Assembly: GCA_017608305.1 (NCBI GenBank)
Contig: JAFCGC010000010.1
Coordinates: forward strand, 1 to 39,299
Direction of reading: 5' to 3'
Source of the DNA: Candidatus Pacearchaeota archaeon
Lineage (GTDB): Archaea > Nanobdellota > Nanobdellia > Pacearchaeales > GW2011-AR1
Length of the DNA: 39,299 bases
Notes under the pieces: model-generated
What the model saw: the letters and a program-made list of their open reading frames with translations, nothing else
The model's database searches: none
Told to the model about the DNA's origin: nothing
Shown: piece after piece, positions 7,515-24,421 of the stretch
Layout of the letters: each line of letters opens with the position of its first letter
Position numbering within the stretch: position 1 is the first letter of the stretch
Made by a program: the position numbers and the translations under genes

Positions 7515-7515
7515 T

Positions 7516-8058
7516 TTAGCTATAAACTCTAAAAGTGATTTTAATTTCTTTTGGTAACTCTTGTATTGCTCCTCTAGAAGTAGAGGTAATATTTCCTTGT
7601 TCAAGCTTAATAATCTCTTCTTCATAAGAAATTATCCTGAGTTCATAGGCTTTTAAGGGCCTATTTTCTCCTATTTGCCAACTTTCTTGAATAATTTCCC
7701 TTAAATCAGTTTCTAACACATCACAGGAATTTCTTTGATCAGCACATTGTTCATTATTATAACACCTAAATAATAGTTTATTTATTGATAAATACTCAAA
7801 ATTACCTGAATCTTGACAATCTGTTGTATATTGTAAAAAACTATGAATAAAGTCTTTGACTTCATAGCTATCTACAGCTGAATCATCTGGGTTTCTTAGT
7901 GAAAATCCTAGTAAAATCAATAAAATAACAGATACTATGATGATTATCAACACAAATCCTATCATCTCTTCTTGCGAGCGTTTTGACCTTGGCAATTTAT
8001 TTCTTATCCCTTTCAATGTCAAGGCGCGAGTTGCCTTTTTATCCCTTATTTTTACCAT
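7516..8058 (-). CDS. Pilin-like secreted protein
   Basis: 180 residues. A basic ~27-residue head ends KRSQEEMIGFVLIIIIV, a class III (type IV pilin-like) signal with a charged cleavage site followed directly by a long hydrophobic helix. The extracellular part contains four cysteines (in TDCQD, FRCYN, EQCAD and NSCDV). Its ATG overlaps the end of the upstream gene by 7 bp, so the two are translated together. The head is longer than in most pilins. I recognise the signal type, not the family. Confidence 0.72.
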   Translation of the reverse strand: MVKIRDKKATRALTLKGIRNKLPRSKRSQEEMIGFVLIIIIVSVILLILLGFSLRNPDDSAVDSYEVKDFIHSFLQYTTDCQDSGNFEYLSINKLLFRCYNNEQCADQRNSCDVLETDLREIIQESWQIGENRPLKAYELRIISYEEEIIKLEQGNITSTSRGAIQELPKEIKITFRVYS

Positions 8059-8567
8059 GTTTTCTCATAACTTATCATTAATTTAGCTAATTCACATTTA
8101 TCATAATATTCTTCACCATTTCCTTGTTTGCTGCATAAAGCAACAAAAGTAGAAGCATCTGTTCCCACAACATTTTCTGAAATCAATCTTATTGTATTGC
8201 AGTCAGGGTAATTTCCAAGATTACATAATTTATTTCCACTTGTTTTTGGATAAATTTTTCTTATTTCTATGTTTGAAATGCCCCAAAAACTATCATAGTT
8301 TTGAATATGTTGTTTTAACATCATTACTTTATCTGCATCAATACAAACTGCTTCTCCATAATTAAATGAATTTCCGCAAGAAAATTCAGGAGAATCTGCT
8401 AATTTTGAGGCTAATAATACTGCATTTTTTTCTTCAAGCAAAGATGAAGATTCTTTTAAATCAGAGAATTTAAATCCAAAAACAAACATCCCAACTAATA
8501 CAAAAAATAAAGTAACTGCTAGTAACATAAATGCTGTTTGCTGGATTTTTAGTTGTGCTTTTTTCAT
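8052..8567 (-). CDS. Pilin-like secreted protein
   Basis: 171 residues. The N-terminus is MKKAQLKIQQTAFMLLAVTL, a short basic head, a small residue before Gln, and then one hydrophobic helix, as in class III signals. The rest carries six cysteines, including FSCGNS, AVCIDA, KLCNLG and YPDCNT, suggesting disulfides. The downstream pilin-like gene overlaps it by 7 bp. An 88-bp gap carrying the three-way inverted repeat element separates it from the upstream pilin-like gene. It is probably a minor pilin or pseudopilin, with partners among the neighbouring genes. No assembly ATPase is in the window. Confidence 0.7.
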   Translation of the reverse strand: MKKAQLKIQQTAFMLLAVTLFFVLVGMFVFGFKFSDLKESSSLLEEKNAVLLASKLADSPEFSCGNSFNYGEAVCIDADKVMMLKQHIQNYDSFWGISNIEIRKIYPKTSGNKLCNLGNYPDCNTIRLISENVVGTDASTFVALCSKQGNGEEYYDKCELAKLMISYEKTW

Positions 8568-8666: not shown

Positions 8667-9584
8667 TTAATATATTCTACAATCTGCAATATAATTGTCT
8701 TCTTTTATTTTATCTACAAGATTCTTAATATAAGCAAGATTTGCAGAGCTTTCTAGATTATTTGTTAAGCTGCTCAATTCTAGTAAATTTAGATTTGAAG
8801 TACATCCTGTTCTTGAGACAAAATTAGCTTTGTCTCTGTATAAAAGAGCTAATTGATTTGTCCTCTGCATTAGTCTTTTTAATTGACATTCATAAATATC
8901 TGGAGAGGAAAATATGGCAGCATACATCAAAGCATTTGTTTCAAAATACACTCTTTTTTCTTTTTTATTTAAATAACCTAAATTATAATTAACAATTATT
9001 TCACAATTTGAATTTGATTCAAAACAAACTTTTATACTCTCATCAGGACAATCTTTTGTTAGTAAATTTTTTTGATTTAAACTTTCTAGCTCTTCTTTAA
9101 TCTCTTCAGGAGCATTAGAAAAACAATATTTTTTTTCTGCAGGACTTAGGTAAATTAAATCAGCAACTTTAAAGGGAAATGCAAAAGGTTTAGAAAAAAT
9201 ATAAAAATTTTTACCTTCAGCAGGATTTTCTGTAAAAAGATATTTATTATAAAAAACCACATCTAAGTCTGTTTCAACCCATTTGTTAAAACTTTTTTGA
9301 GAAACTTGGAGTATTTGTTTCCCAAAAATATTATCTTCTTCACATTTGGCATAAATTCTGCTCTCTATAGGCATTGTAAGAGTGCTGGTTTTTGCAGACT
9401 CAACACTTGTTGCAAAAGGAGTTAGTAAAATACCTATTTCTTTTCCTGTCCTAACACTCTGTTCAGTGTCTCCTACATTTATGAATTTTACTGCAGCATA
9501 AATTGCTAAAAACAAAATAAAAGCACCAACAATAATTGCAAAAAGCCAACTAAAGGATATTTGCAATGCACCCCTCTTTTTCAT
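8667..9584 (-). CDS. Pilin-like secreted protein, large
   Basis: 305 residues from the ATG at 9584. A GTG at 9641 would add 19 residues, but a TATA-like ATATTTAAAC at about 9607-9617 lies between the two, so the mRNA should begin after it. The start MKKRGALQISFSWLFAIIVG is a class III signal: KRG, a cleavage site, then a hydrophobic helix. The large extracellular domain has several cysteines (including YAKCEED, KYCFSN, KDCPDE and SNCEIIVNYN). Its head resembles that of the next upstream gene (MNKRGQIKLSFGMIFSIIL), so they are probably related subunits. Confidence 0.72.
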   Translation of the reverse strand: MKKRGALQISFSWLFAIIVGAFILFLAIYAAVKFINVGDTEQSVRTGKEIGILLTPFATSVESAKTSTLTMPIESRIYAKCEEDNIFGKQILQVSQKSFNKWVETDLDVVFYNKYLFTENPAEGKNFYIFSKPFAFPFKVADLIYLSPAEKKYCFSNAPEEIKEELESLNQKNLLTKDCPDESIKVCFESNSNCEIIVNYNLGYLNKKEKRVYFETNALMYAAIFSSPDIYECQLKRLMQRTNQLALLYRDKANFVSRTGCTSNLNLLELSSLTNNLESSANLAYIKNLVDKIKEDNYIADCRIY

Positions 9585-9753
9585 GAAAAAAATAAGAAAA
9601 CTTAGTTTAAATATTTCTCCATCCACCTCCCCAACCTCCACCCTAATTTATTATCTAACAAACAAGATCCTCTATTAATCAAAATTTTATCATAGTTACT
9701 CCTGAATTTTTATATTAATTATTTAGAAATATCGAATACGTAAGCATGAGCAA

Positions 9754-10179
9754 TCACTTACTTATTGTAACAAGCGCTTCATCAAATTCTTTTTGTAAGA
9801 TCATATTTATTTTTCCATCTATATTTGCAATACATAATTTTTCATTTCCTGCAAGAGTTTTTTCAATATCTAAATGTTCAAAATTATAAGGCTCTGGATA
9901 TTCCTCTAACATAAATAAAACATTTTCATAATCGTCTACAAAACAAATTGCTTGTATTTTTGTAGGTAACCTATATTCAAAAGGCTGAGAAGCTTGTGAA
10001 GACCGCCACACATTATTGATTTCATTTTGTAATTTCTCTTTAAATTTTGCTATTTCAACTTCATCCCTAAATTCAAGAAATTTTTTAATTGCATAAAAAG
10101 CAAATATAATAAAAGCAATTATTAAAATAATTGAAAAGATCATTCCAAAAGAAAGTTTTATTTGGCCTCTTTTATTCAT
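9754..10179 (-). CDS. Small pilin-like protein
   Basis: 141 residues starting MNKRGQIKLSFGMIFSIIL, a near-ideal archaeal class III signal with cleavage expected between Gly5 and Gln6. A hydrophobic helix follows to about residue 33, then a small domain with two cysteines (AICFVDD and KLCIAN). A TATA-like ATTTATAAATATA about 20-30 bp upstream implies a leaderless mRNA. It is the smallest of the pilin-like set and the best candidate for a structural pilin here, but abundance cannot be judged from the sequence. Confidence 0.73.
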   Translation of the reverse strand: MNKRGQIKLSFGMIFSIILIIAFIIFAFYAIKKFLEFRDEVEIAKFKEKLQNEINNVWRSSQASQPFEYRLPTKIQAICFVDDYENVLFMLEEYPEPYNFEHLDIEKTLAGNEKLCIANIDGKINMILQKEFDEALVTISK

Positions 10180-10210
10180 ATCTTAATGAAATAGGTTTAT
10201 ATTTATAAAT

Positions 10211-11047
10211 CTACTTTTTACTTATTGCAAGAACAATTAACATTAAAGTTAAAATTATAAGGAGCACTAAAGTGATTAAAAGAGCAATTTTCCAATCTAT
10301 TTTTTCTATTAAAGATTTTTCTTTTTCCGGAGTTGTTTCTGCTGATTCAATAAACCAATAATCTTGGTTTGAATCTTCTTCTCCAAAATCTAAATAATTA
10401 TCTGAGCTATCTCCGGGTGTTGATTTTTCATCAATTTCTAAATCTCTTTCTTCTGAAAATCCAATATTTCCATTAACATCAACACATTTTATTTTCCATT
10501 CATATTCTCCTTCCCTAAGGTTTTCTTCAAATTCATGCTCAATCCCTGTTTCAGGATTTTCATGTCTTTCTTCTTCATCCCCATCAATTATTAAAACACA
10601 ATAATCAATTTCAGAATCATCAGTTACAGTATACTCAAAATACACTCTCTTAGAATTTTTACTAGTTTCAATTTTTTCATCATCTTCTGGATCATCAAGT
10701 TCAATTACAGGAGCAATTACATCTATTACACCGTTTGATTTTAAAATTTCAATTAAAAGAGTTATATCACTAATATCAATGTCACCTTTTTCATTTACAT
10801 TTCCATATTCTATTGGGTTTGGTGCATCACCATTAAAATACAAATAATCTCTTAAAAATTCATAATCCTCCATGTCAACATCATTATCTCCATCTACATC
10901 TCCTTGTAATGGATTAACAATTGTAGTTTTTTCTTCATAATATTTTACTTTATCAAAATCTATTCCTGGACTAATTTGCGCTCCAACAATTCCTGATAAA
11001 AGCACTAATCCAAGTACTAAAGCCATGAATGTTTTTGTTTGTATCAT
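10211..11047 (-). CDS. Dockerin-containing surface protein with C-terminal anchor
   Basis: 278 residues from the ATG at 11047; the upstream ATG at 11065 lies too close to the TATA box to be likely. Order: signal peptide (about 1-23), type I dockerin with two calcium-loop repeats (GDVDGDNDVDMEDYEFLRDY and GNVNEKGDIDISDITLLIEI), an Ig/FN3-like domain with two cysteines, an acidic linker, one membrane helix and the end ISKK. Dockerins bind cohesins on partner proteins. Signal peptide and dockerin are almost the same as those of the large gene at 26360, even at DNA level. It probably tethers a cohesin-bearing partner to the membrane; no cohesin was recognised here. Confidence 0.8.
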   Translation of the reverse strand: MIQTKTFMALVLGLVLLSGIVGAQISPGIDFDKVKYYEEKTTIVNPLQGDVDGDNDVDMEDYEFLRDYLYFNGDAPNPIEYGNVNEKGDIDISDITLLIEILKSNGVIDVIAPVIELDDPEDDEKIETSKNSKRVYFEYTVTDDSEIDYCVLIIDGDEEERHENPETGIEHEFEENLREGEYEWKIKCVDVNGNIGFSEERDLEIDEKSTPGDSSDNYLDFGEEDSNQDYWFIESAETTPEKEKSLIEKIDWKIALLITLVLLIILTLMLIVLAISKK

Positions 11048-11116
11048 TTTTAACTTAATGTGCAAACAAATTTAGGGTATTTAAATCTTCCTATTTGTAA
11101 CTACTTCAGAATAACA
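11048..11116 (-). promoter_or_regulatory. Promoter shared in sequence with the second dockerin gene
   Basis: Read on this strand, the stretch contains TGTTATTCTGAAGT, a TATA-like GATTTAAATAC about 30 bp before the ATG, and CTAAATTTGTTTGCA. The same string with few changes precedes the dockerin gene at 26360, so the two promoters are duplicates and the genes may be co-regulated. Confidence 0.6.
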
Positions 11117-11154
11117 GCATATTAGAAAAAAATGATTTTTTATCCAAATTCCTA

Positions 11155-11215
11155 GGAGGCTAGTAAAAATTTGGTTTTGGTCGCTGGATTCATAAAAACC
11201 CGCTGGAGGTTTTTA
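11155..11215 (+). repeat. Isolated copy of the winged-helix leader cassette; terminator-like hairpin
   Basis: GGAGGC, then TTTTGGTCGCTGGATTCATA, then an inverted repeat AAAAACC-CGCTGGA-GGTTTTT (11194-11214). The order matches the sequences at 6971-7026 and 7104-7160, but no start codon follows here. The hairpin ends one base after the stop of the leftward 747-residue gene and is followed by T-rich sequence on neither side for long, so it may be a terminator, a dispersed repeat, or both. Confidence 0.55.
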
Positions 11216-13459
11216 TTAAAAGACATCAAAAGGTCTTATAATCATACTACATTCATTAAAATTAGGTTGGTTATCATATTCATCTTTACATTTGATATAA
11301 TAATTTTGATTACTTTTCCATTCTATATAGTGTTCTACTTCTTCTAAGACTTTCATGTCTGAGCCCTCTTCAAAAGAATAATCACAATCTATATTAGAAT
11401 AAACACATTCTGCTTTTTCATTTGTAATTATTTTTAGATTTGTATCTTCTTTATATGCCCTTGTTATTATTGGTTGTTCTGTGTCTGATTCAACACTAAA
11501 TTCTAAAGTTTCTTCATCTGCATTTCCTCCAAGATCAACACATCTTATAGTATAATCATAATCTCCTTCTTCTAACCACAGATTTTGTAAGTGTTCATAA
11601 GAATCTGTTTCATAAAATTTTACATAATTATTTTCTGATTCATCAGATTCTTTATAATAACAAGTTGCTTCTCCTTCTTTATATCCTGCAGATGTTTCTA
11701 CTTCTAAACTTACTTTTATTATTTCTGTTGAATCTTTTATTGTACCATTTGGAAGAACATTGTCAATAACAAGAGGTTTAGTTCCAATTAAAGTGAACTC
11801 TGTACTTTCTGAATTTTCATTTGATTCTTTATCTTCACATCTAAAATAAAATTTATTTTCTTGACTATCTTTTATTCCTTCTAAGGTTGTTGAACATTTG
11901 TATAACATTTGCGCATTCATTTGAAAAAGACCAAGATTACACAACATTGAAGTTTCCATATTTTCATAACTCTTATCATCATGACTCCATTTACATTGTG
12001 CAGGTTCATTGACATAAGCATCTAAATCAATAGAACTTTCTCCATGTGCAATAGGTGTATTATCCAAAATACTTGTTGTCACAATTACAGGAGCAGTTGT
12101 GTCAGGCCCTTTTTGAACACAATATTTAAACACAAAATTTCCAACATTAGTGTTTTCATTTGCATCTGAACATCTAACATAAATTTCATATTCTCCATCA
12201 TTTTGAACTTCAATTCCTTCTGTTTCTAAAGCACTTGTTCCAGGCAAACTCATTGTAAAACTGTGGTTATATAATGATAAACCATTACTAAAGAAAAAAC
12301 CCATTTCTTCAAAATCTTGTTTTCTTATTATGTCGAGTTTACATTTTCCAGGTTCATTTAATTGGATTCCAAATGAAAAAGGGCTAAACGCAGGTACACA
12401 TCCTGTTGTTGAATCTGTGTACTCTATTTCCACACCCCTATCTTGTTTATTAGGAAAAACAATTCCTGCAGGATTATATCTGTACTTTTCTAATAAGACA
12501 TTTTCAAATGCTTCTATTTGAGGAGGGTCAATATCATTTCTATTAATCCAAACACATTTTTCTTCTTCTGTTCCTGGATTAATTATTTCACAGCCTTGCC
12601 CTAGAGCTCGGCACTGATATTCTGAACAAGGAAGATCTCCTTGTTTATTACACTCTTCACATTTGTTTCCTTTTGTTTGAGCATCCCAAGGTTTACAATT
12701 AAAACTTACTATTTCTTCTGCGTCTCTTTTATAGGTTATCAAAAAAATCACAACACTCACTCCTGCTCCTGCAGCAAGACCCCCCCACTCACTTGATAAA
12801 AACTTTCCAATACTTCCAAATTTTTCACTTAAAACTCCACCTGTTTTAAATAAATTATAAGATGTTTTTCCAGCAAAAAATCCAAGCCCAATTGATTTAG
12901 ACATAGCATCGACTAAGTTTTCATCTCCAATCCATCCAAATGCATATCTTATTCCTTGATAAATTGAAAAAGCATAACCTGCATTCATCAAAATCTGCAA
13001 CGATGTTGTTTTTGCTGTTTGCCAGCCAGTTTTTCCTTTTAATTCTTTTATTAAATTTTTGTCAATTACTTTTTCTAAAGACATTCCATCTTTGCCTGTT
13101 TCAAGAAACCACTCCCCATTTTTTTCTAAATAAAGTTCTCCTTCAAATACGCGATACCCCTCTTCTTCAAGTATTGCTTTTGCACCAAATGGTCCTCCGC
13201 CTGTAGTGGTTAGAGCCCGTTGATGTTCATAAGGAGTAAAAGTAAATGTGGGTTTTGGAGTAGTAGGCATTTGACCTGCAACTTTTATTGTTTTATCTAA
13301 AACAACTGGACCTGAAAAAAAATCAACAGTTTCTTCAGAATCTTTTGCACTAACAATTTCTACCTCACTACTAAGAGCATAACTAATTGCAATAATTCCT
13401 ATTATTAAAATTATTATTTGGCTTAAAGCCATTCCTCCCTTTTTTTTGTCACCTCTCAT
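11216..13459 (-). CDS. Cysteine-rich surface protein, C-terminal half of module (split form)
   Basis: 747 residues. The N-terminus MRGDKKKGGMALSQIIILII is a class III-like signal. Residues 150-245 contain hydrophobic, glycine-rich segments, then SFNCKPWDA opens a cysteine-rich knot and a series of Ig-like domains with repeated phrases such as YVRCSDANENTN and YTIRCVDLGGN. From residue ~250 to the end it aligns by eye with residues ~738-1244 of the protein at 16480-20214, including LGQGCEI and the RAY...ITNE...C ending. It is the split counterpart of that fusion. Function unknown; a pilus-associated or adhesin role is inference. Confidence 0.75.
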   Translation of the reverse strand: MRGDKKKGGMALSQIIILIIGIIAISYALSSEVEIVSAKDSEETVDFFSGPVVLDKTIKVAGQMPTTPKPTFTFTPYEHQRALTTTGGGPFGAKAILEEEGYRVFEGELYLEKNGEWFLETGKDGMSLEKVIDKNLIKELKGKTGWQTAKTTSLQILMNAGYAFSIYQGIRYAFGWIGDENLVDAMSKSIGLGFFAGKTSYNLFKTGGVLSEKFGSIGKFLSSEWGGLAAGAGVSVVIFLITYKRDAEEIVSFNCKPWDAQTKGNKCEECNKQGDLPCSEYQCRALGQGCEIINPGTEEEKCVWINRNDIDPPQIEAFENVLLEKYRYNPAGIVFPNKQDRGVEIEYTDSTTGCVPAFSPFSFGIQLNEPGKCKLDIIRKQDFEEMGFFFSNGLSLYNHSFTMSLPGTSALETEGIEVQNDGEYEIYVRCSDANENTNVGNFVFKYCVQKGPDTTAPVIVTTSILDNTPIAHGESSIDLDAYVNEPAQCKWSHDDKSYENMETSMLCNLGLFQMNAQMLYKCSTTLEGIKDSQENKFYFRCEDKESNENSESTEFTLIGTKPLVIDNVLPNGTIKDSTEIIKVSLEVETSAGYKEGEATCYYKESDESENNYVKFYETDSYEHLQNLWLEEGDYDYTIRCVDLGGNADEETLEFSVESDTEQPIITRAYKEDTNLKIITNEKAECVYSNIDCDYSFEEGSDMKVLEEVEHYIEWKSNQNYYIKCKDEYDNQPNFNECSMIIRPFDVF

Positions 13460-13469
13460 TTTTATTTTT

Positions 13470-13859
13470 TTATTTTTTTAAATATAAGACAGAATATTTT
13501 CCTATGCCTTCCCAGTTATATTTAGCAGGTTTGTATGTTGCTGGACTCCAACTAAAAAATCTTTTACACCACTCACCAAGATCACAAACATCTAATTTAT
13601 CTATGCTTCCTTGTGAACAAAGTCCTTTTACATAATAAGGCAAATCTCCATTCATATCAACATGAAACATCACACTACCATCCTCCAGATATTTTCTATG
13701 TGTGCCTTGAGCAATTTTAACTCCTTTTTTGTTTGTAATTCCAATTTCATCAGAAACATTAGAAATCTCTTTATAAACTTCAGAACACCCATTTAAGCAT
13801 CCTAAACTTGCAAGTGTTAATAACCCTGTTCCTACAATAGTTCTCATTGTTTTTCCCAT
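13470..13859 (-). CDS. Small lipoprotein-like secreted protein
   Basis: 129 residues from the ATG at 13859. The in-frame ATG at 13898 lies upstream of a TATA-like ATTTAAATAT (13881-13890) and is rejected. The N-terminus MGKTMRTIVGTGLLTLASLG is followed by CLNGC, so a lipobox-like LNGC could be lipidated. Later segments carry further cysteines (GLCSQG, DVCDLG and EWCKRFF). I know no matching family. It sits between the two halves of the split cysteine-rich protein, where the paralogous fused gene has nothing, and it has its own promoter. Whether DPANN cells modify such lipoboxes is uncertain. Confidence 0.65.
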   Translation of the reverse strand: MGKTMRTIVGTGLLTLASLGCLNGCSEVYKEISNVSDEIGITNKKGVKIAQGTHRKYLEDGSVMFHVDMNGDLPYYVKGLCSQGSIDKLDVCDLGEWCKRFFSWSPATYKPAKYNWEGIGKYSVLYLKK

Positions 13860-13910
13860 GTTTGTTTCACAGTTTTGTTCATATTTAAATGTTACCATTT
13901 TATAATTACA

Positions 13911-15590
13911 CTACTGTCTTTTCAATAAATCCTCCCATTTATCATATCCTTCTTGACCAATATAATTTTTACTACTTCCACAATCTCCTAAGGAAATACA
14001 TAGATTTTTTTTAGTTTGCTGCCACCCATCTGTTATTAACCAACAATTTCCTATTTCATTTTCACAATCAGACATATCTTTGTCAGGTTTATCTCCTGCC
14101 CAATCAGACCTATAAGTAACTGTGCCTTGAGCATTTGCTAAACTGCAAATTTCTTCTGCATCACCTTCTTGCCAAAAATCAAATCCAGGAGCATATTTTG
14201 GAATACAAGAAAACACAAAATAATCTTTTGAATTATAAGATGAAGCAATTAGTCTGTCAGCAATTCCAGTTACCTCTCCATCATATTCCCAAGTATTAAA
14301 CCACTCTTCACTAATATCTTCATTATCTATAATCATTTCATTTAATTTTTCTATGTCTCCATCACTTAATCCTTCTTTTAAATTTCCACTATTAACCCAT
14401 TGACAATCTCTTTTATCTATATTTTCACAATCCTTTTTTTCATCTTGAGCAAAACAATCTTCCCACATGTTTACTCTGCAAGCAGATGTTGAAAAATCAT
14501 CAAGATCTGATTCAACACAGACTTCTTGTCTAAAATCTGCACACGGTTCAACAGTTATATCTCCATTGTAGCACACTAATCTAAAATGTCGACTTCCAGG
14601 TAGATTCTTATCTGCGCCTGCTGCATCAGCACACCAAGTTTCTCCATGCTCATAAGGTTCTCCGTTATATTCACAACTCAGGTCTTCACAAATATAATCT
14701 CCATAAGTTGGATTAGATCCTCTTTCTGTTTTTTTACAAGTACTTCCTTGAAAATAATCACAATTTCCACAACTTCTTGCACCTGCAGAATCTAAATTGC
14801 ATATTTTTGATGAATCTTCAATTTCAGCCCAATAATTTGGATCATTTTGTCTTTTAGCATCATAGATGTTTGCTAAATTACCACAACTATCTAAAAAGAA
14901 AACTTCATCTCTTCCCTCAACACAAGTTGTTTCTTTACTCTTTCCACAATTTGTTGCTAGTTTCTCATCAGAACATAATTTTCCTTCATAAAATCTCACA
15001 GAAGTAACAGGATCTGATTCTGAATCAAATTGTTCTAAAATATTTGTTGGAGTACTAATTTCCATTTCCTGACATTGTTTTTTTGTAGTAAATGTACAAG
15101 TTTTTTCAAATTCCTTTTCAAACACACATGCTCCTTTTGCTCTTGGACTTGCACTAGCAATACATTGGATTTCACTTGAAACATCTGTTCTAAAAATTGT
15201 TTCTAAACCATAGAGTGCAGTCAATCTCTTACATCTTGTTTGTGTAACAAATGCTGCTTGATCCCCTATTAAACAACAACCTAATTTACATTGTGAAATA
15301 TCTTCTGGTTCATCGTCTTTCCAAAATCCTCCTGCATCTTCGCATGTTTTTTGAGGTGTATTTTCCATACAGTCTCCTTCTTCAGGATTAATACAAGTAC
15401 CAAGTTTACAATAACTAGTAGATTCACATGAAGTCGGAGCTGTTCTATAACTTGAATCACATTTTGCTTCTGGTTCATTCATACACCAAACTCCTCCAAT
15501 AGTTTTTTCACAACAATAAGAAACTTCAGCAGCACCTACTAAACTAATGAGAAAAATTCCAAAAACAAAAACTAATAATTTATTTTTCAT
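13911..15590 (-). CDS. Very cysteine-rich secreted protein, N-terminal half of module (split form)
   Basis: 559 residues: a signal peptide (cleaved near AAEVSYCC), then an extracellular part with about 41 cysteines by my count, arranged in repeats of the form C-x(n)-GG-x-W-x(n)-C-x3-CC and DLSCEYNG...GETWC. It aligns with residues ~50-470 of the 1244-residue protein, sharing DLSCEYNG and LCISLGDCG..NYIG. It stops soon after the last motif. There is no anchor of its own, so it must be secreted or held by partners. The disulfide load implies oxidative folding outside the cell. The following genes at 13470 and 11216 complete the module. Confidence 0.75.
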   Translation of the reverse strand: MKNKLLVFVFGIFLISLVGAAEVSYCCEKTIGGVWCMNEPEAKCDSSYRTAPTSCESTSYCKLGTCINPEEGDCMENTPQKTCEDAGGFWKDDEPEDISQCKLGCCLIGDQAAFVTQTRCKRLTALYGLETIFRTDVSSEIQCIASASPRAKGACVFEKEFEKTCTFTTKKQCQEMEISTPTNILEQFDSESDPVTSVRFYEGKLCSDEKLATNCGKSKETTCVEGRDEVFFLDSCGNLANIYDAKRQNDPNYWAEIEDSSKICNLDSAGARSCGNCDYFQGSTCKKTERGSNPTYGDYICEDLSCEYNGEPYEHGETWCADAAGADKNLPGSRHFRLVCYNGDITVEPCADFRQEVCVESDLDDFSTSACRVNMWEDCFAQDEKKDCENIDKRDCQWVNSGNLKEGLSDGDIEKLNEMIIDNEDISEEWFNTWEYDGEVTGIADRLIASSYNSKDYFVFSCIPKYAPGFDFWQEGDAEEICSLANAQGTVTYRSDWAGDKPDKDMSDCENEIGNCWLITDGWQQTKKNLCISLGDCGSSKNYIGQEGYDKWEDLLKRQ

Positions 15591-15612
15591 TTTTTTTATT
15601 CTGGTTTTGTCT

Positions 15613-15631
15613 AATCTTTTTTAAAAAGATT
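15613..15631. promoter_or_regulatory. Perfect 19-bp palindrome between pilin-like and cysteine-rich genes
   Basis: AATCTTTTT-T-AAAAAGATT lies 15 bp downstream of the pilin-like stop and about 23 bp before the next ATG on the minus strand. As RNA it could pair fully, so it may be an attenuator, a processing site or a weak terminator tuning the ratio of pilin to cysteine-rich protein. Confidence 0.4.
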
Positions 15632-15640
15632 ATTTTTATT

Positions 15641-16444
15641 TTAACCATATCCCGGAGGCCATGCAAAACTCCTTGATGCAAATTGAAATTTATTTAAATT
15701 ATTTCTATCAGTTAAAATATAAATTATACTCCCTTCTGTTTGTTTTAATTTTTCAACCTTTAAATCATGATAAGCATTCATGTAAAGAGTTGTTTCAGCA
15801 TCACCATAATTTGCTTCCCAATTTAAAATACTGTTAGCAATACTGACTAATTCATAAATATTATTGTTAACAATCACATCAAAAGAATCATGTGTTTCTG
15901 TATTTTCTTTTGACAAAGTCATTGGATAATTTAGTTTAACAAGAATTCTTTTTGGAATCAATTCAACTTTAATATCCCCTTGTTTTAAATTAACTTGGTA
16001 ATTTCTATTTTCATAACTTTCTTTTAAAGAATTTAAACACTCTTTGGCTTTTTTCTGAATATTGTTTTTAATTTCTTCTTCTATGTGATTGTCTAAGAGA
16101 GGTTGTTGCATTACACAAGCTTTGTGATATTCATTAGTATAGCAAAGATATTCTATTCTTTTTCCATTATACATAATATAGTGTGGAGGGTTTATACTTC
16201 CTCCTTGAAGGGCTAATTCTTCTATACTGTTCTTAATATCTGGTTCAAGACAATCTTGAAGATATGCAGAAGGATTTTTAGTCTCTACTCCTATTGTTGA
16301 TTTTATTTCTGGATAAAACATATAAATCAAAATTCCAAGAGCAACAATTACAATTGCAATTATGATAAAAATTGTTACTTGTCCCTCTTTGTTTTGACCA
16401 ATTTTGGGCAAAGCAGACCGAATTTGTGAGAGTCTTTTGCTCAT
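15641..16444 (-). CDS. Pilin-like protein, module copy 2
   Basis: 267 residues. A 24-residue head ends NKEGQVTIFIIIAIVIVALG, a class III signal with cleavage expected between Gly and Gln. The extracellular domain has paired cysteines (QDCLEPD, YLCYTNEYHKAC and KECLNS) and the end FASRSFAWPPGYG. It is a clear paralogue of the protein at 20216-21004: the same GQVTIFIII, the CLE, LCY and C..Q.P segments, and the PPG end. Each copy immediately precedes a cysteine-rich protein, suggesting the two act as a pair. The family is unnamed as far as I know. The spacing to the next gene is 50 bp. Confidence 0.78.
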   Translation of the reverse strand: MSKRLSQIRSALPKIGQNKEGQVTIFIIIAIVIVALGILIYMFYPEIKSTIGVETKNPSAYLQDCLEPDIKNSIEELALQGGSINPPHYIMYNGKRIEYLCYTNEYHKACVMQQPLLDNHIEEEIKNNIQKKAKECLNSLKESYENRNYQVNLKQGDIKVELIPKRILVKLNYPMTLSKENTETHDSFDVIVNNNIYELVSIANSILNWEANYGDAETTLYMNAYHDLKVEKLKQTEGSIIYILTDRNNLNKFQFASRSFAWPPGYG

Positions 16445-16479
16445 ATTTATTCTATGTTTTTCTAATTTATAAATTTACT

Positions 16480-19400
16480 TTATGTTGAAGGTTTTATGAT
16501 GATTGCACAATCTGAATTTACATTATCCCAAGCATCTCCACATTTTACATAATAGGTTTTTTTAGTATTCCAATCTGCAAAATGTTCATTTGAAAAACCA
16601 ATAGTCATTTTTGTTGAATTTTCAAAATTAAATGGATTACATCTATCATAATCATTATAATAACATTGAGCTAATTCATCTGTAATTAGTTTTAATTCCC
16701 CCAAATAATTATAAGCCCTAACAATTCTTGGGCCTGTGAAATCAACTTCTATTGTAAAACTTATATCCTTGTAAACAGTATTTCCTGCTTTGTCTTCACA
16801 TTTAATTGGAAAATTATAATTTCCAGCCATTTTATCTGCGAGAAATTGTGTGTGGATATTTGAATTTGTTTCTTGTAAGGGAACATTTAAATCTCTTGTC
16901 CAATAACAAATAGCCTCACCATTATCTGCTCCTCCAGAAGTTTCAACACTCATTTCAACAGAAACAGGTTCAAAACCTTCTTTAATAGTTTCCCCCATAT
17001 TAATTGATTGGGTTTCATATTTGATTTCCACAGAATCTATGGATAATTCACTTTCTGATACATGTAATGTATAAGGAAAATCATCTTTGTTTTTGTTTCT
17101 ATTCAAATCTTCTGATTCCCATGGCTTGTCTTTACATTTTATATAAAAATTATTTTCTCCTTGAAATAAATCTGTGAGAGTTGTATTACAAGGCCATCCA
17201 AAATCTTCTTGATCATCTAATTGGATTTTACACCCAAAACTATAAGGCATAGCATTATAATCTGTTCCAGCAACCAAATCATATTTACATTCTGCAGGCT
17301 CATTTATCCACATTTTAAAATCTGTTTCTGTTTCTCCATATTTTAAATAATCATTATTTTTTGGTTTAAACACAGTTAAAGAATGATCAACTACTGTTTC
17401 ATCTGGTCCATCGTGCAAGCAAAAATTAACTATATATTCATCAATATTAAAATTCGCAGGTTTTTGACCATCTTTACATCTTACATATATTTTTACATCT
17501 CCAAAAAATCCATCCTTAACATTTCCTTCAACATCATAAGGATCTAAACTATCTACACTAATTCCTTTAATTTCAAAACTATGATTTATTGTGAATAGAT
17601 TTTCTTCAAGAGGAAAGTTTTCAACCATTTCTTCATAATCTGGACTTGAAGGCCTTTCAAAACTAAATTTACATTGTGCAGCTTCATTTGTATTGAGAGT
17701 AAATTTAAGTTTTGTAAATTCTTGAACACATCCTCCCCCTTGTTTTGTTATTTTAACACTTTTTGTTTGCTTGTTTGTAAAATCATATCCAGGAGTTAAA
17801 ATGTTTCCAGGAATAATTATTGGAGGATCTGTTTCATATTCCATTGCCTCACAAATTGGATGATCTGTATTTTCATTTAAAATTTCACAAGTTTGTCCCA
17901 AGCTTTCACATTTATATCTTGTACAAGGAAAAAGATCATTTTCATGGCATCTAGAACAATCTTCTCCTCCTCCAGGTGCTGTCCAAGCAAGGCATTTAAA
18001 TGAAACCTTGTATTCTTTTGTTTCTGCTCCCCCTAAAATAAATGAAAAAAGAAAAGTAAGTGCCACCAATACAATTGCAGGAGTCCAAGATCCAAAAATT
18101 CCTATTTTTGCTAAAATTGCAAAAGCCCCACTAGCTCCTCCTGTTAAAGTTATGACTGTCGCAGCAACAGGATCTGCAACCCCAAACCATTGCGCAAGCT
18201 TATGTCCAACAAACATTCCTATTGCAGCACCTAATGCAGCTGTTCCAATAGCCCCAATAGTTATTGCAACTGAACCAGGAGCAGAACCTGTTCCAAAAAT
18301 TGCTGCACTTTTCATCATTATTGTATTTGTTCCTATTACTGTGCTAGTTATTGAAGGAGTAATAATGCTCAAAGCTCCAATCAAAGTTCCTGTTCCACCA
18401 ACAATTTTTCCTAGAAGTTTAAGAGCTTTTTTATTTCCATACTCTAAATCACTTGGTCCTGCACTAGTGGATCCTGCTTCCCAGATAAAACCTTGCCGAT
18501 TTATGTTTTGGGGTTTTACAAATTGTCCTTCTACAGAATCTGCATATTTTTCAAAACCTCCTAATTGAACTTTTTCAAAACTTTTTGCAAAGTATTTTCC
18601 ATTTTCACAATAACCAGAACGAGCACATTTGAAAAATAATTGATTTTTAAAAATCATAAAAATAGTTGTTGGAATCTCAATACCCTTAAAAGGATCTATT
18701 AGTTTGTTTCCTTCACAATATTCTTGGCATTTTGTTTCTTGAATTTTATTAAATAATTCAAAAATAGAAGTGGATTTTTTTTCATGTTCTACTTTAATAT
18801 TGTTTGTGCCTTCACCAATATAATTTACATAGCTTCCACAATCTCCTAAAGAAACACATAAATTATTCATTTTTTCTGCAAAAACTGGTTTTTCACAATT
18901 ACAATTTGCTTCACAATCCCAATCATCAAGCCTATTTTTTTTCAAATAAGTAACAATACATTCTTGGTTTGCTATTGCACAAAGACTATCGTCTATTTCA
19001 TCTCTTAAATTAGCTCCTTTTGGATAAGCAGGAACACAAGTTTTAAATTGAAAATATTGATCAACATAAACATCTTCAACTTTACAGTGAGAATTAGCTT
19101 GACAAGAATTTATGTTTTCTTGATTATCAACTAATTTTGCATTTTCTCCTTCTCCTTGAACTTCTTGTAAAGGCCCATAACCCATACATCTACTTGCTTC
19201 ATTTACAACACACGATGCTGTTGAAAATTTTTTATTTCCTTCTTTTATAACATGTTCACTGCAAATAAAATTTCTTTGTTCCCCACATCGATCTATTTCA
19301 AATTCTCCATTAAGGCAATGAGCTAGCCAGTGTTCACTTCCAACCACATCTTTTCCATCCCCAATAAATCCTTCATAAACACACCAACTTTCTCCATTAA

Positions 19401-20214
19401 GATAGGTTTTTCCATTATATTCACAACTTAGATCCTTACAAATAGGATTTCCATCAATTAATTCACAAGCACTTTTTCCCTGTGTACATTTTTTATAAAT
19501 AGATTCTTTATTATTGTAGTTATCAAAATTATAAATATGAATTTCCCCATTTGCACAACCTTGATGATGGCCTTTTTCATAACCTGTTTCTAAAATAGGA
19601 TTAGAACAAAAAATATCTTTGTAAAAACTTCCCCCTTCTCGAATACATTGTTTTTTAGTTTTAAATCTGCAGGCATTTTCTTCATAAACACAAGCTCCTT
19701 CTTGTTCTCCTGATCCTAAACTTATGCATTCATATTCTGTTTCAATATCCCTAAAATCTTTATCTATTCCTTTTACTTGAGAAAGATATTCACATTCTTT
19801 TTCATTTTTAAATTTAAATTTATTTCCTAGGACACAACATCCTTTTTGGCATTCTTGGATTAAACAATCACTGCCTTGTTTCCAAACCCCACCTCTTTCT
19901 TCACAGATTTTTCTTGGAACCCCTAAATCACAACTTCCTTGAATTTCATCAATACAACATCCTTTTTTGCAATTATTTGTATATTCACATGTTGTTTCTG
20001 CTAGAGCAACAGCACATTCCTCTGGATTGGTAGATAAAACATCCTGGCAGGTTTCAGGGCAACAATTCATAGGTGGAATTTCTTCATCAGCAGAAACAAT
20101 CCCTATTTGTTCAATTGTGAATAATTTGATTAAATAACTATTTGAGGGAGCCAAGCTCATTACTAATAAAAGTTGCACAAAAACTAAAACCAAAATACCA
20201 ATACTTTTTTTCAT
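16480..20214 (-). CDS. Large cysteine-rich surface protein (fused form of module)
   Basis: 1244 residues. Signal peptide (1-41), then a cysteine-rich region (about 50-540) with repeated CC motifs, DLSCEYNG at ~262 and LCVSLGDCG at ~452. A hydrophobic, Gly/Ala/Ile-rich stretch (about 600-730) has several possible membrane segments. A second cysteine region starts with SFKCLAW at ~738 and leads into Ig-like domains ending RAYNYLGELKLITDELAQC. The first half matches the 559-residue gene and the second half the 747-residue gene, so this is the fused version. It follows the pilin-like gene by one base and is translated with it. Architecture suggests a membrane-embedded surface assembly; function unknown. 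Confidence 0.8.
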   Translation of the reverse strand: MKKSIGILVLVFVQLLLVMSLAPSNSYLIKLFTIEQIGIVSADEEIPPMNCCPETCQDVLSTNPEECAVALAETTCEYTNNCKKGCCIDEIQGSCDLGVPRKICEERGGVWKQGSDCLIQECQKGCCVLGNKFKFKNEKECEYLSQVKGIDKDFRDIETEYECISLGSGEQEGACVYEENACRFKTKKQCIREGGSFYKDIFCSNPILETGYEKGHHQGCANGEIHIYNFDNYNNKESIYKKCTQGKSACELIDGNPICKDLSCEYNGKTYLNGESWCVYEGFIGDGKDVVGSEHWLAHCLNGEFEIDRCGEQRNFICSEHVIKEGNKKFSTASCVVNEASRCMGYGPLQEVQGEGENAKLVDNQENINSCQANSHCKVEDVYVDQYFQFKTCVPAYPKGANLRDEIDDSLCAIANQECIVTYLKKNRLDDWDCEANCNCEKPVFAEKMNNLCVSLGDCGSYVNYIGEGTNNIKVEHEKKSTSIFELFNKIQETKCQEYCEGNKLIDPFKGIEIPTTIFMIFKNQLFFKCARSGYCENGKYFAKSFEKVQLGGFEKYADSVEGQFVKPQNINRQGFIWEAGSTSAGPSDLEYGNKKALKLLGKIVGGTGTLIGALSIITPSITSTVIGTNTIMMKSAAIFGTGSAPGSVAITIGAIGTAALGAAIGMFVGHKLAQWFGVADPVAATVITLTGGASGAFAILAKIGIFGSWTPAIVLVALTFLFSFILGGAETKEYKVSFKCLAWTAPGGGEDCSRCHENDLFPCTRYKCESLGQTCEILNENTDHPICEAMEYETDPPIIIPGNILTPGYDFTNKQTKSVKITKQGGGCVQEFTKLKFTLNTNEAAQCKFSFERPSSPDYEEMVENFPLEENLFTINHSFEIKGISVDSLDPYDVEGNVKDGFFGDVKIYVRCKDGQKPANFNIDEYIVNFCLHDGPDETVVDHSLTVFKPKNNDYLKYGETETDFKMWINEPAECKYDLVAGTDYNAMPYSFGCKIQLDDQEDFGWPCNTTLTDLFQGENNFYIKCKDKPWESEDLNRNKNKDDFPYTLHVSESELSIDSVEIKYETQSINMGETIKEGFEPVSVEMSVETSGGADNGEAICYWTRDLNVPLQETNSNIHTQFLADKMAGNYNFPIKCEDKAGNTVYKDISFTIEVDFTGPRIVRAYNYLGELKLITDELAQCYYNDYDRCNPFNFENSTKMTIGFSNEHFADWNTKKTYYVKCGDAWDNVNSDCAIIIKPST

Positions 20215-20215
20215 T

Positions 20216-21004
20216 TTAAAATCCTGGAGGAATTACACACCCTCTTATAGCAAATCTAAATTTAGTTGAACTATCTTCATGTTTTAAAGTATAAATTATA
20301 GAAGAATCACTTGTTCTGTGTTTGTCTATGCTCCATTCAGGATAAAGTAACATATATCCTACATATTCAAAATGACAAAATCTTGCTTCTTGATTAACAA
20401 CTTCTTGAGCAAGATCTATTAGCCCGTAGAGTTTACTAGGAAAACTAATTTTAAACTCATTTTGTTTTGTGGTTTCTCCATGGTTTGTAAGAGAAATTTC
20501 AGCATTAATATCAATTTCTATTTTATTTGGGTCTAATCTAAGGTCAAAATTTCTATATCTTGAATCAACTACTTCCCATTGATTTTCTAAACTTTTTCCT
20601 AATTCAGTAAAACATTCTTCAACTTCTTGAGAAATATAGTCTTTCATTTGGCCCTCTACATGTTGCATTAACATTGGTTCTTGATTTATACAAGGATAAT
20701 AATAGTTTTTATTATAACATAAATAAGAAATATCTTTGTAGATTCCTTCTTGCTCAAATTTAAATGTTTTGTAAAGCTCAGGTTCTGAAGTTCCTCCTTG
20801 GATTGCAATGTTTTTTTCAGCCTCTTTTATTTTGTCTTCTAGACATATTGTTAAAAAACTAGGTGAATTTGTTTTTTTTGAACTACCCCCCATTGAAGAA
20901 GGCAAGTCACTTCTAAAAAATATAAATAATAAAGCAATTCCAACTATAATCACCCCAATGATTATGAAAATTGTAACCTGTCCTTTCAAATTTTTATTTA
21001 TCAT
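20216..21004 (-). CDS. Pilin-like protein, module copy 1
   Basis: 262 residues beginning MINKNLKGQVTIFIIIGVII, a class III signal cut between Gly8 and Gln9, followed by one hydrophobic helix. The extracellular domain contains TICLEDKIKEAEKNIAIQGG, LCYNKNYYYPC, EECFTELGK and the ending RGCVIPPGF. It is a paralogue of the protein at 15641. Its ATG overlaps the TGA of a 47-codon upstream gene (ATGA), and its stop is one base from the large cysteine-rich gene, so the three form a tight operon. It could be a minor pilin that anchors the cysteine-rich partner (inference). Confidence 0.78.
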   Translation of the reverse strand: MINKNLKGQVTIFIIIGVIIVGIALLFIFFRSDLPSSMGGSSKKTNSPSFLTICLEDKIKEAEKNIAIQGGTSEPELYKTFKFEQEGIYKDISYLCYNKNYYYPCINQEPMLMQHVEGQMKDYISQEVEECFTELGKSLENQWEVVDSRYRNFDLRLDPNKIEIDINAEISLTNHGETTKQNEFKISFPSKLYGLIDLAQEVVNQEARFCHFEYVGYMLLYPEWSIDKHRTSDSSIIYTLKHEDSSTKFRFAIRGCVIPPGF

Positions 21005-21144
21005 TTTTTGTTCCTCTGTTTTTTTAATAATTCAATTAATGCTTTATTTAAAGAAATAGAACGAGGAATAGTGTTTTTCCATTTTTCCCAAATCTCTTCT
21101 GGAATTTCTAGTAGAAACTTCTTAATCACCCTCTTTTTGCCCAT
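21001..21144 (-). CDS. Small ribbon-helix-helix-like protein heading the surface operon
   Basis: 47 residues, beginning MGKKRVIKKFLLEIPEEIWE. The order is a basic strand ending FLLEIP, helix EEIWEKWKNTI and helix SLNKALIELLKKQ, which fits a ribbon-helix-helix DNA-binding protein of the Arc/CopG type, at the short end of that family. The TGA overlaps the ATG of the pilin-like gene. Palindromes lie in its promoter directly upstream, as expected for an autoregulator. It could instead be a small structural peptide; the fold is inferred from pattern only. Confidence 0.6.
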   Translation of the reverse strand: MGKKRVIKKFLLEIPEEIWEKWKNTIPRSISLNKALIELLKKQRNKK

Positions 21145-21344: not shown

Positions 21345-21923
21345 ATGAAAGAGCCAAAGATCTTGAAAACAACTTCTAATCAGGACGTGTTGCACAATAT
21401 TGTCAGAATAGTTTATGCTATTTTCCTTGTGCTAATTTTTCTCTTTTATGTCATAGAAAATGAATCTCCAGGCCTTAATGTATTCACCAATATTCTAGGA
21501 GAATGGCTAGGAATGCTATGGGCATTGCTTATTCCTCTTGTTATCCCTTTTAAAAAACTTAAGTGGAGACTTGTCACCTTTTTTCCACTAGTAATAATTG
21601 GGATGTTTATTGCAGAAAAGATTAAAGTATATCATGATTTTGAGGGACTCATTCTAATTTTCTACGCTATTATTTTTCTTATTTTCATTATAATTAGTCA
21701 TTTTTTATTTAGATTTCTTAAAAAATGGAATACTAAAAAATTAAACTGGACTATTCTTATTGTATTGATTTTAGCCATAACTTTTATGTTTATTCCAATT
21801 TACTCTGGTTTAATTGAAGCAAAACAGTATGCAGAATATGCAGCAGAATCTATTGCAAAGCTTAACTCCTCTTTTCAAAAACAAAAAACCAGAGGATTAT
21901 TTAATCTTCAGTTTCAACCCTAG
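21345..21923 (+). CDS. Multi-pass membrane protein, unknown function
   Basis: 192 residues from the ATG at 21345; an in-frame TTG at 21285 would add 20 polar residues and is less likely. There are about four hydrophobic segments (VRIVYAIFLVLIFLFYVI, LGMLWALLIPLVIPF, LVTFFPLVIIGMFIA and two close ones after residue 105), a basic loop FRFLKKWNTKKLNW, and a soluble end. No motif was recognised. It is divergent from the surface operon, sharing the control region 21145-21344, and its last 23 bp overlap the end of PCNA on the other strand. A TATA-like TTTTTTAAATAG lies at about 21250-21261. Confidence 0.65.
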   Translation: MKEPKILKTTSNQDVLHNIVRIVYAIFLVLIFLFYVIENESPGLNVFTNILGEWLGMLWALLIPLVIPFKKLKWRLVTFFPLVIIGMFIAEKIKVYHDFEGLILIFYAIIFLIFIIISHFLFRFLKKWNTKKLNWTILIVLILAITFMFIPIYSGLIEAKQYAEYAAESIAKLNSSFQKQKTRGLFNLQFQP

Positions 21924-22626
21924 GAGCTAGAATAAAGTTTAACTCAATTCCTGGAGTTTTAATATTCATCTTTAAAGGATGATCATTTGCAAAATTTAAA
22001 ACTGTTTTTTCACAGAGTTTTGAAGCCTTGATAAATTTTATTAAATATTCTAAACTATATTTAGACCTACAGTTTTCTGCTTGAATACTTGCTTCATCCC
22101 CTGAAAATTCAGATCTAGCAGAATTTAAACTCCTAGCTTCAATTATAAATTTGTTTTCTTCAATAACAAAAGAACAAGCATCAGCAACAACAGAACAATC
22201 CTCTACTGAATCTATAAGGTCAACAGAATTTAATTCAACTCGTGAACTAAAATCTAAATTTGGCATTTCTTTATCTTCAGATTCTATCTCAATCAGATTA
22301 AGACTAAAATTTCTCTTTATTCTATCTTGAATTAATATATTTAAGAGATTGTCTCTTTTTTCTAGAATCAAAGAACTTCCAGAGCCACATCTTTTTAAAA
22401 TTCTTTTTAGGCTATCTAAATTAATTCCTAATACTTCTGGATCTGTTTCAAATTGGGAAAAAGCACTTTTAGGAGCTTTGAACTCGACCATAGCAACATT
22501 TGCAGGATCTATTGCAGTTATTGATAGCCCATACTCACTAACTTTAATTCTCACCTCTGTAACCAACTCTGAAATAATATCTACAGCCTTAGATAATAGA
22601 GTCGGATTTTCTAGTTTTAACAACAT
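21901..22626 (-). CDS. pcn: DNA polymerase sliding clamp (PCNA)
   Basis: 241 residues from the ATG at 22626; the TTG three codons earlier is rejected. This is the ring-forming clamp that tethers DNA polymerase, FEN1 and ligase. Signs include ENPTLLSKAVDIISELVTEV at the start, SEYGLSITAIDPANVAMVEF, the DLIDSVEDCSVVADACSF second-domain entry, and the C-terminal LNFILAPRVETED, where the strand before the tail docks partner PIP boxes. Length is normal for a homotrimeric archaeal clamp. It is transcribed divergently from the primase operon, which groups replication genes here. Confidence 0.96.
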   Translation of the reverse strand: MLLKLENPTLLSKAVDIISELVTEVRIKVSEYGLSITAIDPANVAMVEFKAPKSAFSQFETDPEVLGINLDSLKRILKRCGSGSSLILEKRDNLLNILIQDRIKRNFSLNLIEIESEDKEMPNLDFSSRVELNSVDLIDSVEDCSVVADACSFVIEENKFIIEARSLNSARSEFSGDEASIQAENCRSKYSLEYLIKFIKASKLCEKTVLNFANDHPLKMNIKTPGIELNFILAPRVETED

Positions 22627-22711
22627 ATTTACCAAAACACCATTTATCTTTTAAGCATTATTATGATTAAGTATAGGGTATTTATTTAAACTTTGCCTAA
22701 TTGATTGTAAA

Positions 22712-23117: not shown

Positions 23118-24410
23118 ATGGGAAATGGAATTTCACATAAAGAAACACGCATACGAAATTTAACTAACTTATATTATTCTAGACCTGAAATACAAAAAAT
23201 CATTTTTGAGTTTTCAGAAAACAGAGAAATTTCACCAAGATATTTTGAAGGATTTGGGAAAAGACCTGATTCTTTTCAATATGTAGGAGATATTTTTCAG
23301 TTAGTAAAAAAAGGTGCAACGAGTTTTCATTGTTCTGAAGAACTTTGGGAAGATCCTCTTAAAATTTCCACAGAAATGAATGAAGAACAAGCAAATAAAT
23401 TAAGAATCGGGTGGGACTTGGTGATTGATATTGATAGTAAATATATTGATTATAGTAAAATTTCTGCCGAAATAATAATTGATATGTTGAAATTTCATGG
23501 GATTAAAAATATTGGAATTAAATTTAGTGGAAGTAAGGGATTTCACATAATTGTTCCTTGGAAGGCTTTTCCTAAAGTGATCAATGATGTACAAACATCT
23601 GATAAATTTCCTGAATGGGCAAGAATTTTGACTAATTATCTCACAGAACAAACAAAAAATAAATTAATTGAAAGAGTTTCAAGTCTGACAAAACCGAGTA
23701 AATATATTAAGGATTTTCAAGCACCAAAAGAAGTAATGCCTGACCTTATTCTTGTTTCTCCAAGGCATTTGTTTAGGGCCCCATATAGTCTTCATGAAAA
23801 AACAGCTCTAGCAAGTATTGTTTTAGATCAAGATCAAATAGCGAATTTTGAACTAAAAGATGCAGATCCAATGAAAATAACTCAAATAAAAAATTTTATG
23901 CCAGATTCAATAGAAGGAGAAGCAAAAGAATTACTCATGCAGGCTCTTGATTGGTATAATCAAAATAATCCTGAACAAGAAAAAACCAAAAAATCAGGAG
24001 AATTTAAACCAATTAAACTTTCAAATTTATCTGAGCAAAATTTTCCTCCTTGCGTGAAAAATATTTTAAAAGGAATTTCAGATGGAAGAAAAAGAGCTTT
24101 ATTTGTTTTAATTAATTTATTTCGTTCTGTTGGAATGGATAGAGAGGAATTAGAAAAAAGAATAGAAGATTGGAATAAAAAAAATGAAGTGCCTATAAAA
24201 CAAGGTTACATAAAAAGCCAGCTTAGTTGGAGTTTTAGAAAAACCCCAATTCTCCCTCAAAATTGTAAAGAATTTTATAAGGGGATAGGAGTTTGTGACC
24301 CAGATACCTTATGCAGCAAAATAAAAAATCCTGTAAATTATGTTGTGAGAAAATCCTTTAATGGAAACATAAAGCAGAAAACTAAAGATAATTTTAAAAA
24401 CAAGTCTTGA
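23118..24410 (+). CDS. priS: DNA primase, PriS fused to a PriL-type iron-sulfur domain
   Basis: 430 residues. It makes RNA/DNA primers for replication. The catalytic part shows the DID metal site (Asp104, Asp106 in LVIDIDSK), SGSKGFHIIVPW (137-148) and the RHLFRAPYSLHEKT block (216-229). After ~300 residues comes a second domain with FPPCVKNIL (Cys312), QNCKEF (Cys383), GVCDPD (Cys393) and TLCSKI (Cys399). These four cysteines are spaced like the 4Fe-4S ligands of the large subunit PriL. Normally the two subunits are separate; a one-chain primase of this kind is known from Nanoarchaeum, which supports the DPANN placement. Confidence 0.92.
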   Translation: MGNGISHKETRIRNLTNLYYSRPEIQKIIFEFSENREISPRYFEGFGKRPDSFQYVGDIFQLVKKGATSFHCSEELWEDPLKISTEMNEEQANKLRIGWDLVIDIDSKYIDYSKISAEIIIDMLKFHGIKNIGIKFSGSKGFHIIVPWKAFPKVINDVQTSDKFPEWARILTNYLTEQTKNKLIERVSSLTKPSKYIKDFQAPKEVMPDLILVSPRHLFRAPYSLHEKTALASIVLDQDQIANFELKDADPMKITQIKNFMPDSIEGEAKELLMQALDWYNQNNPEQEKTKKSGEFKPIKLSNLSEQNFPPCVKNILKGISDGRKRALFVLINLFRSVGMDREELEKRIEDWNKKNEVPIKQGYIKSQLSWSFRKTPILPQNCKEFYKGIGVCDPDTLCSKIKNPVNYVVRKSFNGNIKQKTKDNFKNKS

Positions 24411-24421
24411 TTAATTATATA

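Follow-up and report, generated by a model that had tools for sequence, protein, structure and literature searches.

A vertically inherited operon of Pacearchaeota and related DPANN archaea for a putative disulfide-rich, membrane-anchored surface complex

In this study, we analyzed a 39,299-nucleotide stretch of DNA (the window; contig JAFCGC010000010.1, assembly GCA_017608305.1) from a Candidatus Pacearchaeota archaeon, whose genome is 720 kb and approximately 84% complete, and found a gene cluster built around a duplicated unit. Each of the two paralogous units consists of a gene for a predicted single-pass membrane protein (pil) followed by the coding capacity for a giant cysteine-rich A-B protein, fused in one gene (AB) in unit 1 and split into two genes (A and B) in unit 2. 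Together with four genes for small membrane proteins, the set pil1-AB-pil2-A-B + p141-p324-p171-p180 is an inherited operon located between the genes for PCNA and an S-layer protein in most Pacearchaeota genomes checked. Cysteine counts further point to a disulfide link between the A and B halves.

The five open reading frames (ORFs) of the duplicated units all lie on the minus strand: pil1 (262 residues, 20216-21004), AB (1244 residues with 66 cysteines, 16480-20214), pil2 (267 residues, 15641-16444), A (559 residues, 13911-15590) and B (747 residues, 11216-13459). A previous sequence-only reading of this DNA, made without database searches, had proposed that two pilin-like genes are paralogs and that the 1244-residue protein corresponds to the 559- and 747-residue proteins, being composed of two separable halves that are fused in one unit and split in the other. 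BLASTP comparisons bore this out. The pil2 protein, partner of the split unit, was 32% identical to pil1, the partner of fused AB, over 261 columns (E=6e-42), residues 25-468 of AB matched the A protein with 29% identity (E=6e-52), and residues 632-1242 matched the B protein with 31% identity (E=4e-68). The two halves match fused AB in the same order, and all of these similarities are far above chance. Residues ~480-630 of AB fall outside both pairwise alignments; they form a joining stretch that varies and is hydrophobic in part.

Within AB, alignment with the 559-residue protein delimits an A domain (residues ~47-476; 18787-20076) that has 41 cysteines after the N-terminal segment and belongs to no known family. 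The B domain (residues ~738-1242; 16489-18003) has 21 cysteines and is predicted to be a tandem immunoglobulin (Ig)-like region on the basis of alignment, Foldseek and weak Big_13 matches. Between them, hydrophobicity and low-confidence helices in an AlphaFold2 (AF2) model suggest a hydrophobic Gly-rich membrane region (residues ~595-735; 18010-18432) with approximately four hydrophobic segments. The split-off A protein has its own signal sequence and 41 cysteines, the number that the sequence-only reading had estimated, and the split-off B protein has its own N-terminal membrane segment and 21 cysteines.

A profile search revealed relatives of AB in 82 of 111 genomes, which belong almost without exception to the same family and for the most part to the same order; among the named ones the label is mainly Pacearchaeota and in some cases Nanoarchaeota or Woesearchaeota. 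We fetched 40 loci of these relatives for cluster comparison, some of which are cut by contig ends. The usual gene order was pil1-AB-pil2-A-variable stretch-B-variable stretch-p141-p324-p171-p180, with AB mostly of 1070-1400 residues, A of ~480-680 and B of ~680-1000; in the window the conserved cluster likewise runs past position 11216, as far as p180 at 7516. A pil gene was located no more than 150 bp upstream of fused AB in 30 of 35 cases (four more within 1.5 kb) and of split A in 21 of 31 (most remaining ones within 1.5 kb). Thus, both the similarity of the halves to the fused protein and the conserved pil adjacency, on which the sequence-only reading had staked its case, were found. The observation holds up and has a wider reach than that reading gave it; the reading had overlooked the probably ancestral state of the fused form, the larger operon and the odd cysteine counts that imply a linkage between A and B.

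The cluster is flanked upstream in relatives by PCNA/primase genes; in the window the PCNA sliding clamp gene, which we identified ourselves from the sequence, lies at 21901-22635 on the minus strand. Downstream, among the 18 loci holding p171/p180, a helix-turn-helix (HTH) regulator was present in 16 and an S-layer protein in 13, corresponding in the window to an HVO_A0114-like regulator gene (7113-7514, plus strand) and a gene for an S_layer_C protein (4005-6488, minus strand). A mobile element was considered as an explanation of the cluster and was rejected on account of these fixed neighbors. In a phylum-wide profile search, 219 of 279 genomes matched at E<=0.001, of which we counted only the strong full-length matches, since many weak ones may reflect mere Ig-like or cysteine-rich similarity. 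The cluster recurred in twenty strong regions, mostly from other orders, where its usual content was a pair of fused AB genes together with pil genes, p324, p171 and p180. An S-layer neighbor was not detected in the loci of other orders by a weak single-sequence search over short flanks. We also observed three pil-AB units instead of two in some relatives (L038, 3691-17155; L178; L177), and in L064 (10182-12682) pil2 and A are encoded on the other strand from unit 1, suggesting that the two genes were inverted locally.

Phylogenetic trees of A, B and pil, which were quick, midpoint-rooted and had many weak forks, placed the two units, apart from a few exceptions, in separate groups that correspond between the trees. 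This matching separation implies that pil, A and B have been co-inherited since an old duplication, and a recent tandem copy was rejected on the basis of the trees. Besides the split genes, the unit-2 group includes three fused genes (L051, L057 and L055) and, at its base, fused copies from other families. Because fused copies occupy this base and fused pairs occur in other orders, the simplest reading of the sequences is that fusion was ancestral and that the split is derived and mostly restricted to unit 2 of family f1; the duplication, as judged from these trees, preceded the split. There may have been several splits (L058, L181), or a single one followed by re-fusion. In L055, the two fused AB genes (4449-8324 and 9336-12956) have a nearly identical N-terminal segment while the remainder differs, which suggests recombination between the units.

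A clue to how the two halves are held together came from the parity of their cysteine counts, for which the first 25-30 residues were removed and the A/B boundaries were set by the analyst. In the split proteins, 43 alignment columns of A and 21 of B were occupied by cysteine in half or more of the sequences. Among the fetched loci, the total in fused AB was even in 33 of 35 proteins, with the A part odd in 31 of 35 and the B part odd in all 35; split A was odd in 27 of 31 and split B in 24 of 29. The corresponding figures in a second collection, with overlaps removed, were 47/54 (fused, even), 31/37 (split A, odd) and 14/20 (split B, odd), and in other orders 34/41 (fused, even), 21/27 (A part, odd) and 24/27 (B part, odd). 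Cytosolic control neighbors had no parity bias (primase 11 odd and 10 even, PCNA 11 and 12). Counts in the outer parts of the other cluster proteins were predominantly even: 97 of 98 for pil, 31 of 31 for p171, 29 of 31 for p141, 26 of 28 for p180 and 32 of 36 for p324.

In addition, cysteine columns vanish in strict pairs, such as 829-932 (15/15), 95-122 (15/15) and 86-117 (19/19), and further paired losses involve 51-76, 1192-1236 and 434-438. Taken together, odd A, odd B, even fused totals and paired loss would most simply mean that all cysteines are paired and that A is joined to B. It is a strong inference from sequence that the number of disulfides linking the two halves is odd, in the simplest case one. 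The remaining odd cysteines never vary, so the co-loss analysis identified no bridging pair; the bridging cysteines probably lie near the end of A and in a cluster of seven cysteines with which B begins. About 32 disulfides are expected in the giant AB protein. The heavy disulfide bonding outside the cell that had been suggested before is supported, and the split A and B products probably remain joined by a disulfide as a covalent heterodimer. The split A and B genes also remain close together despite variable inserted ORFs between them.

An AF2 model of AB residues 45-1244 had a predicted local distance difference test score (pLDDT) of 72.4, with A mostly at 70-89, B mostly at 75-93 and low values in the middle. 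Foldseek searches with the B region retrieved tandem Ig and cadherin chains with E-values down to 5e-12; the whole-chain template modeling scores (TM-scores) were low, as expected for flexible domain chains. The model thus indicates that the B half is a chain of Ig-like domains, in the form of tandem beta-sandwiches, and weak Big_13 matches were found in 9 of 35 AB members. For the A half, searches of Pfam, NCBIfam and PDB sequences returned no family. The middle stretch of the fused copies has approximately four moderately hydrophobic Gly-rich segments, kept in most of them and lacking in L060 and in one of the two copies in L053. Split B has a new N-terminal membrane segment ahead of about one to three hydrophobic segments. 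Topology prediction based on hydrophobicity gave inconsistent segment counts.

The pil proteins carry a class-III-like start ([KR]x?[GASN]Q before a helix) in 97 of 98 members, KGQVTIF in the case of pil1. At position +5, the pil1 and pil2 members scored had F, W, Y or other residues and never the E of type IV pilins. An AF2 model of pil1 built with 67 homologs (pLDDT 92.6) showed a helix at residues 7-31, a low-confidence break at 38-41 and then an alpha/beta domain, for which Foldseek found no PDB match at E<=0.001. As modeled, the outer domain does not adopt a pilin fold, and the long continuous alpha1 helix is lacking. The earlier label of pilin therefore holds for the class-III-type N-terminal motif and the membrane helix, but not for the outer domain.

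Similar N-termini occur in the small membrane proteins p141 (9754-10179), p171 (8052-8567, 6 cysteines) and p180 (7516-8058, with a [KR][GAS]QxE motif), whose class-III-like start was observed in 25 of 31, 26 of 31 and 28 of 28 members, respectively. The membrane protein p324 (8667-9641) is a p141 paralog whose true start is probably an internal ATG at ~9584; all four genes are on the minus strand. Identity in the helix and in the outer domain was 0.64 and 0.36 for p141, 0.60 and 0.40 for p324, 0.57 and 0.42 for p171, and 0.60 and 0.33 for p180, so that, judged by sequence, these four proteins resemble pilins in that conservation is higher in the N-terminal helix than in the remainder. Profile comparison showed that the N-terminal segments of these families are related, and that p141 and p324 are related over their length; no family was found for pil or the p proteins in Pfam, NCBIfam or PDB sequence searches. 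In many relatives, the N-termini of fused AB or split B (for example, L033, 4346; L067, 9822) have K-x-G-x-x-x-x-[E/Q] before the first hydrophobic helix, a pattern akin to class III signals and carrying E/Q at +5; AB of the window lacks it, and B of the window has Q.

No secretion ATPase, TadC-like protein or peptidase was found among the window ORFs or the cluster families. The ATPase and TadC-like genes of this genome sit elsewhere, on contigs C13 and C35, and relatives mostly have an ATPase (109 of 111), a TadC-like protein (105 of 111) and a prepilin-type peptidase (71 of 76). A Pilin_N search of the genome had a separate pilus locus as its sole match, below the cut-off. A pilus locus on contig C13, L080 (G000:C13:34000-44661), encodes an ATPase, two TadC-like proteins and five pilin-like proteins, one of which (QVWVE) retains glutamate at +5, and L082 has a similar set. 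Searches of the window proteins and of 35 AB members gave no DUF2341 or other PilY-type Pfam match. Given that pil lacks both glutamate at +5 and a pilin fold, that AB contains internal hydrophobic segments and lacks DUF2341, and that machinery genes are absent from the cluster, we do not class the cluster as a type IV pilus; it would be at most an orphan variant of archaeal pilus loci.

We propose, with a little more confidence than doubt, that this vertically inherited operon builds a membrane-anchored, disulfide-stapled adhesion or contact complex in Pacearchaeota and related DPANN archaea. Each unit would pair a single-pass pil protein with a giant protein made of the cysteine-rich A, a hydrophobic Gly-rich stretch that may anchor it in the membrane, and a B half of Ig-like modules. 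A would be bound to B by an odd number of disulfides, and unit 2 of family f1 would be a covalent two-chain protein. The four p proteins, with their similar N-termini, would complete the set, and the small proteins may be processed by the prepilin-type peptidase of the genome. The complex would then project across the S-layer and adhere to other cells or make contact with them. The anatomy, the conservation, the duplication before the split and the cysteine pairing pattern are well supported; adhesion or host contact is plausible, with about even chances. A role in a pilus tip, adhesion or host contact, as offered by the sequence-only reading, is an inference.

Several points weigh against this proposal. 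No known adhesin turned up as a close match, and the function is deduced from sequence and models. Ig-like domains are a frequent feature of surface proteins of many kinds. If all weak hydrophobic segments are counted, split B could be placed on the wrong side of the membrane. Homodimers formed through the odd cysteines also fit the split forms, though the fused forms less simply, and the parity sets are related sequences rather than independent draws, with boundaries chosen by the analyst. VKOR, the expected disulfide-forming enzyme, was not found in this genome and is patchy among relatives (35 of 111), although the surface proteins seem to be oxidised throughout; Thioredoxin_4 is present in 40 of 56 relatives.

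On the other hand, the six small proteins might be minor pilins and AB (or A+B) a PilY1-like tip adhesin. Such a pilus-tip complex, which we consider unlikely but deserving attention, would account for the class-III-like starts of pil, p180, p171 and p141, for the membrane helices of the four p proteins being conserved above their outer domains, and for the wide occurrence of the peptidase, ATPase and TadC-like genes. Yet the pil outer domain has no pilin fold and follows a break after the membrane helix, glutamate is absent from +5, and no DUF2341 or PilY-type match was obtained. The several internal hydrophobic segments of AB are unlike a released tip protein, and we know of no internal membrane segments in PilY1. 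The machine, too, is encoded elsewhere in the genome and is also present in relatives without detectable AB. Alternatively, the operon might encode a structural envelope component that anchors or spaces the S-layer without any role in contact with other cells, which appears rather improbable. The frequent S-layer and regulator neighbors favor such a scaffold, as do near-universal presence in the family and vertical inheritance, both expected of a core structure. However, duplicate units and low identity (within the family, AB often 30-45% versus 49-80% for PCNA) fit an exposed, changing surface better, and the S-layer neighbor was not seen in other orders, within the limits of that search.

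A third alternative is a membrane-active device, in which the Gly-rich hydrophobic middle would insert into the membrane of a partner cell and form a bridge or pore. It would explain why such segments lie between two large outer domains in the majority of fused copies and, to some extent, are kept in split B, but ordinary membrane anchoring explains the same pattern simply, the copies in L060 and L053 mentioned above lack the segments, and AF2 confidence is low in this region; we regard it as very improbable. The same slight probability is given to the boldest version of a contact function, namely a class-wide DPANN contact organelle whose A-B middle spans or enters the partner membrane and whose gene fission gave the disulfide-linked two-chain form.

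The adhesion and contact complex favored here resembles several known systems in part. Archaeal Clade 1 type IV pilus loci encode several predicted minor pilins and large DUF2341 PilY-like proteins proposed as tip adhesins (Makarova et al., 2016; PMC4858521). Our cluster is similar in encoding several class-III-type small proteins beside large secreted proteins, but it differs from these loci in having no ATPase, TadC, peptidase or DUF2341, a pil outer domain that is not a pilin fold, and an AB protein with internal hydrophobic segments and ~32 expected disulfides. Almost all pilus components of Pyrobaculum and Thermoproteus are reported to contain several conserved cysteines, with disulfides expected (PMC4858521); they share with our cluster cysteine-rich components, a likeness by description in another lineage for which no homology is claimed. 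That genes for small class-III-type proteins accompany one for a giant protein recalls bacterial PilY1 and FimU-PilVWXE as a working analogy, although no sequence or Pfam relation was found, and duplication of the unit and division of the giant protein in two set our cluster apart. Through weak Big_13 and tandem-Ig structural matches, the B half is like Ig-like surface proteins (Big_13, DUF4625, cadherin/Ig chains), but each B is distinguished by its 21 conserved cysteines and by its association with a unique A domain that is itself rich in cysteine. A literature search, which covered few subscription journals, found no annotation or paper describing this cluster.

Additional genes lie within and around the operon. 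Between A and B, the window has a 142-residue ORF (13470-13898, minus strand) with a lipoprotein-signal-like N-terminus, a lineage-specific insertion whose only homolog among the fetched loci is in the close relative L049. Differing ORFs are inserted in the A-B gap of unit 2 across relatives (L048, L056, L068), with a gap of ~6.5 kb at most (L048). A 284-residue secreted protein outside the conserved set (10211-11065, minus strand) had weak dockerin-like and Ig-like Pfam matches and a C-terminal membrane anchor, and no counterpart in the other fetched loci. It is similar in its N-terminus and dockerin-like domains to a secreted protein at 26339-29785 that also has a NosD/beta-helix region; no cohesin was found in the genome as a partner for these domains. 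Adjoining the primase gene, 24407-26230 encodes a 607-residue protein with 30 cysteines and a C-terminal membrane segment, which has relatives in 11 loci and no Pfam family.

The genomes of DPANN archaea are small and, when cultured, these archaea rely on other cells; to our knowledge the mechanism by which they attach to partners is largely unknown. The operon described here is retained in most of the strongly reduced genomes examined, fixed beside PCNA and often beside an S-layer gene. It supplies named genes and a sharp prediction, the disulfide between A and B. The cysteine-parity test, in turn, offers a simple detector of covalent links between domains or between the products of split genes in uncultured organisms.

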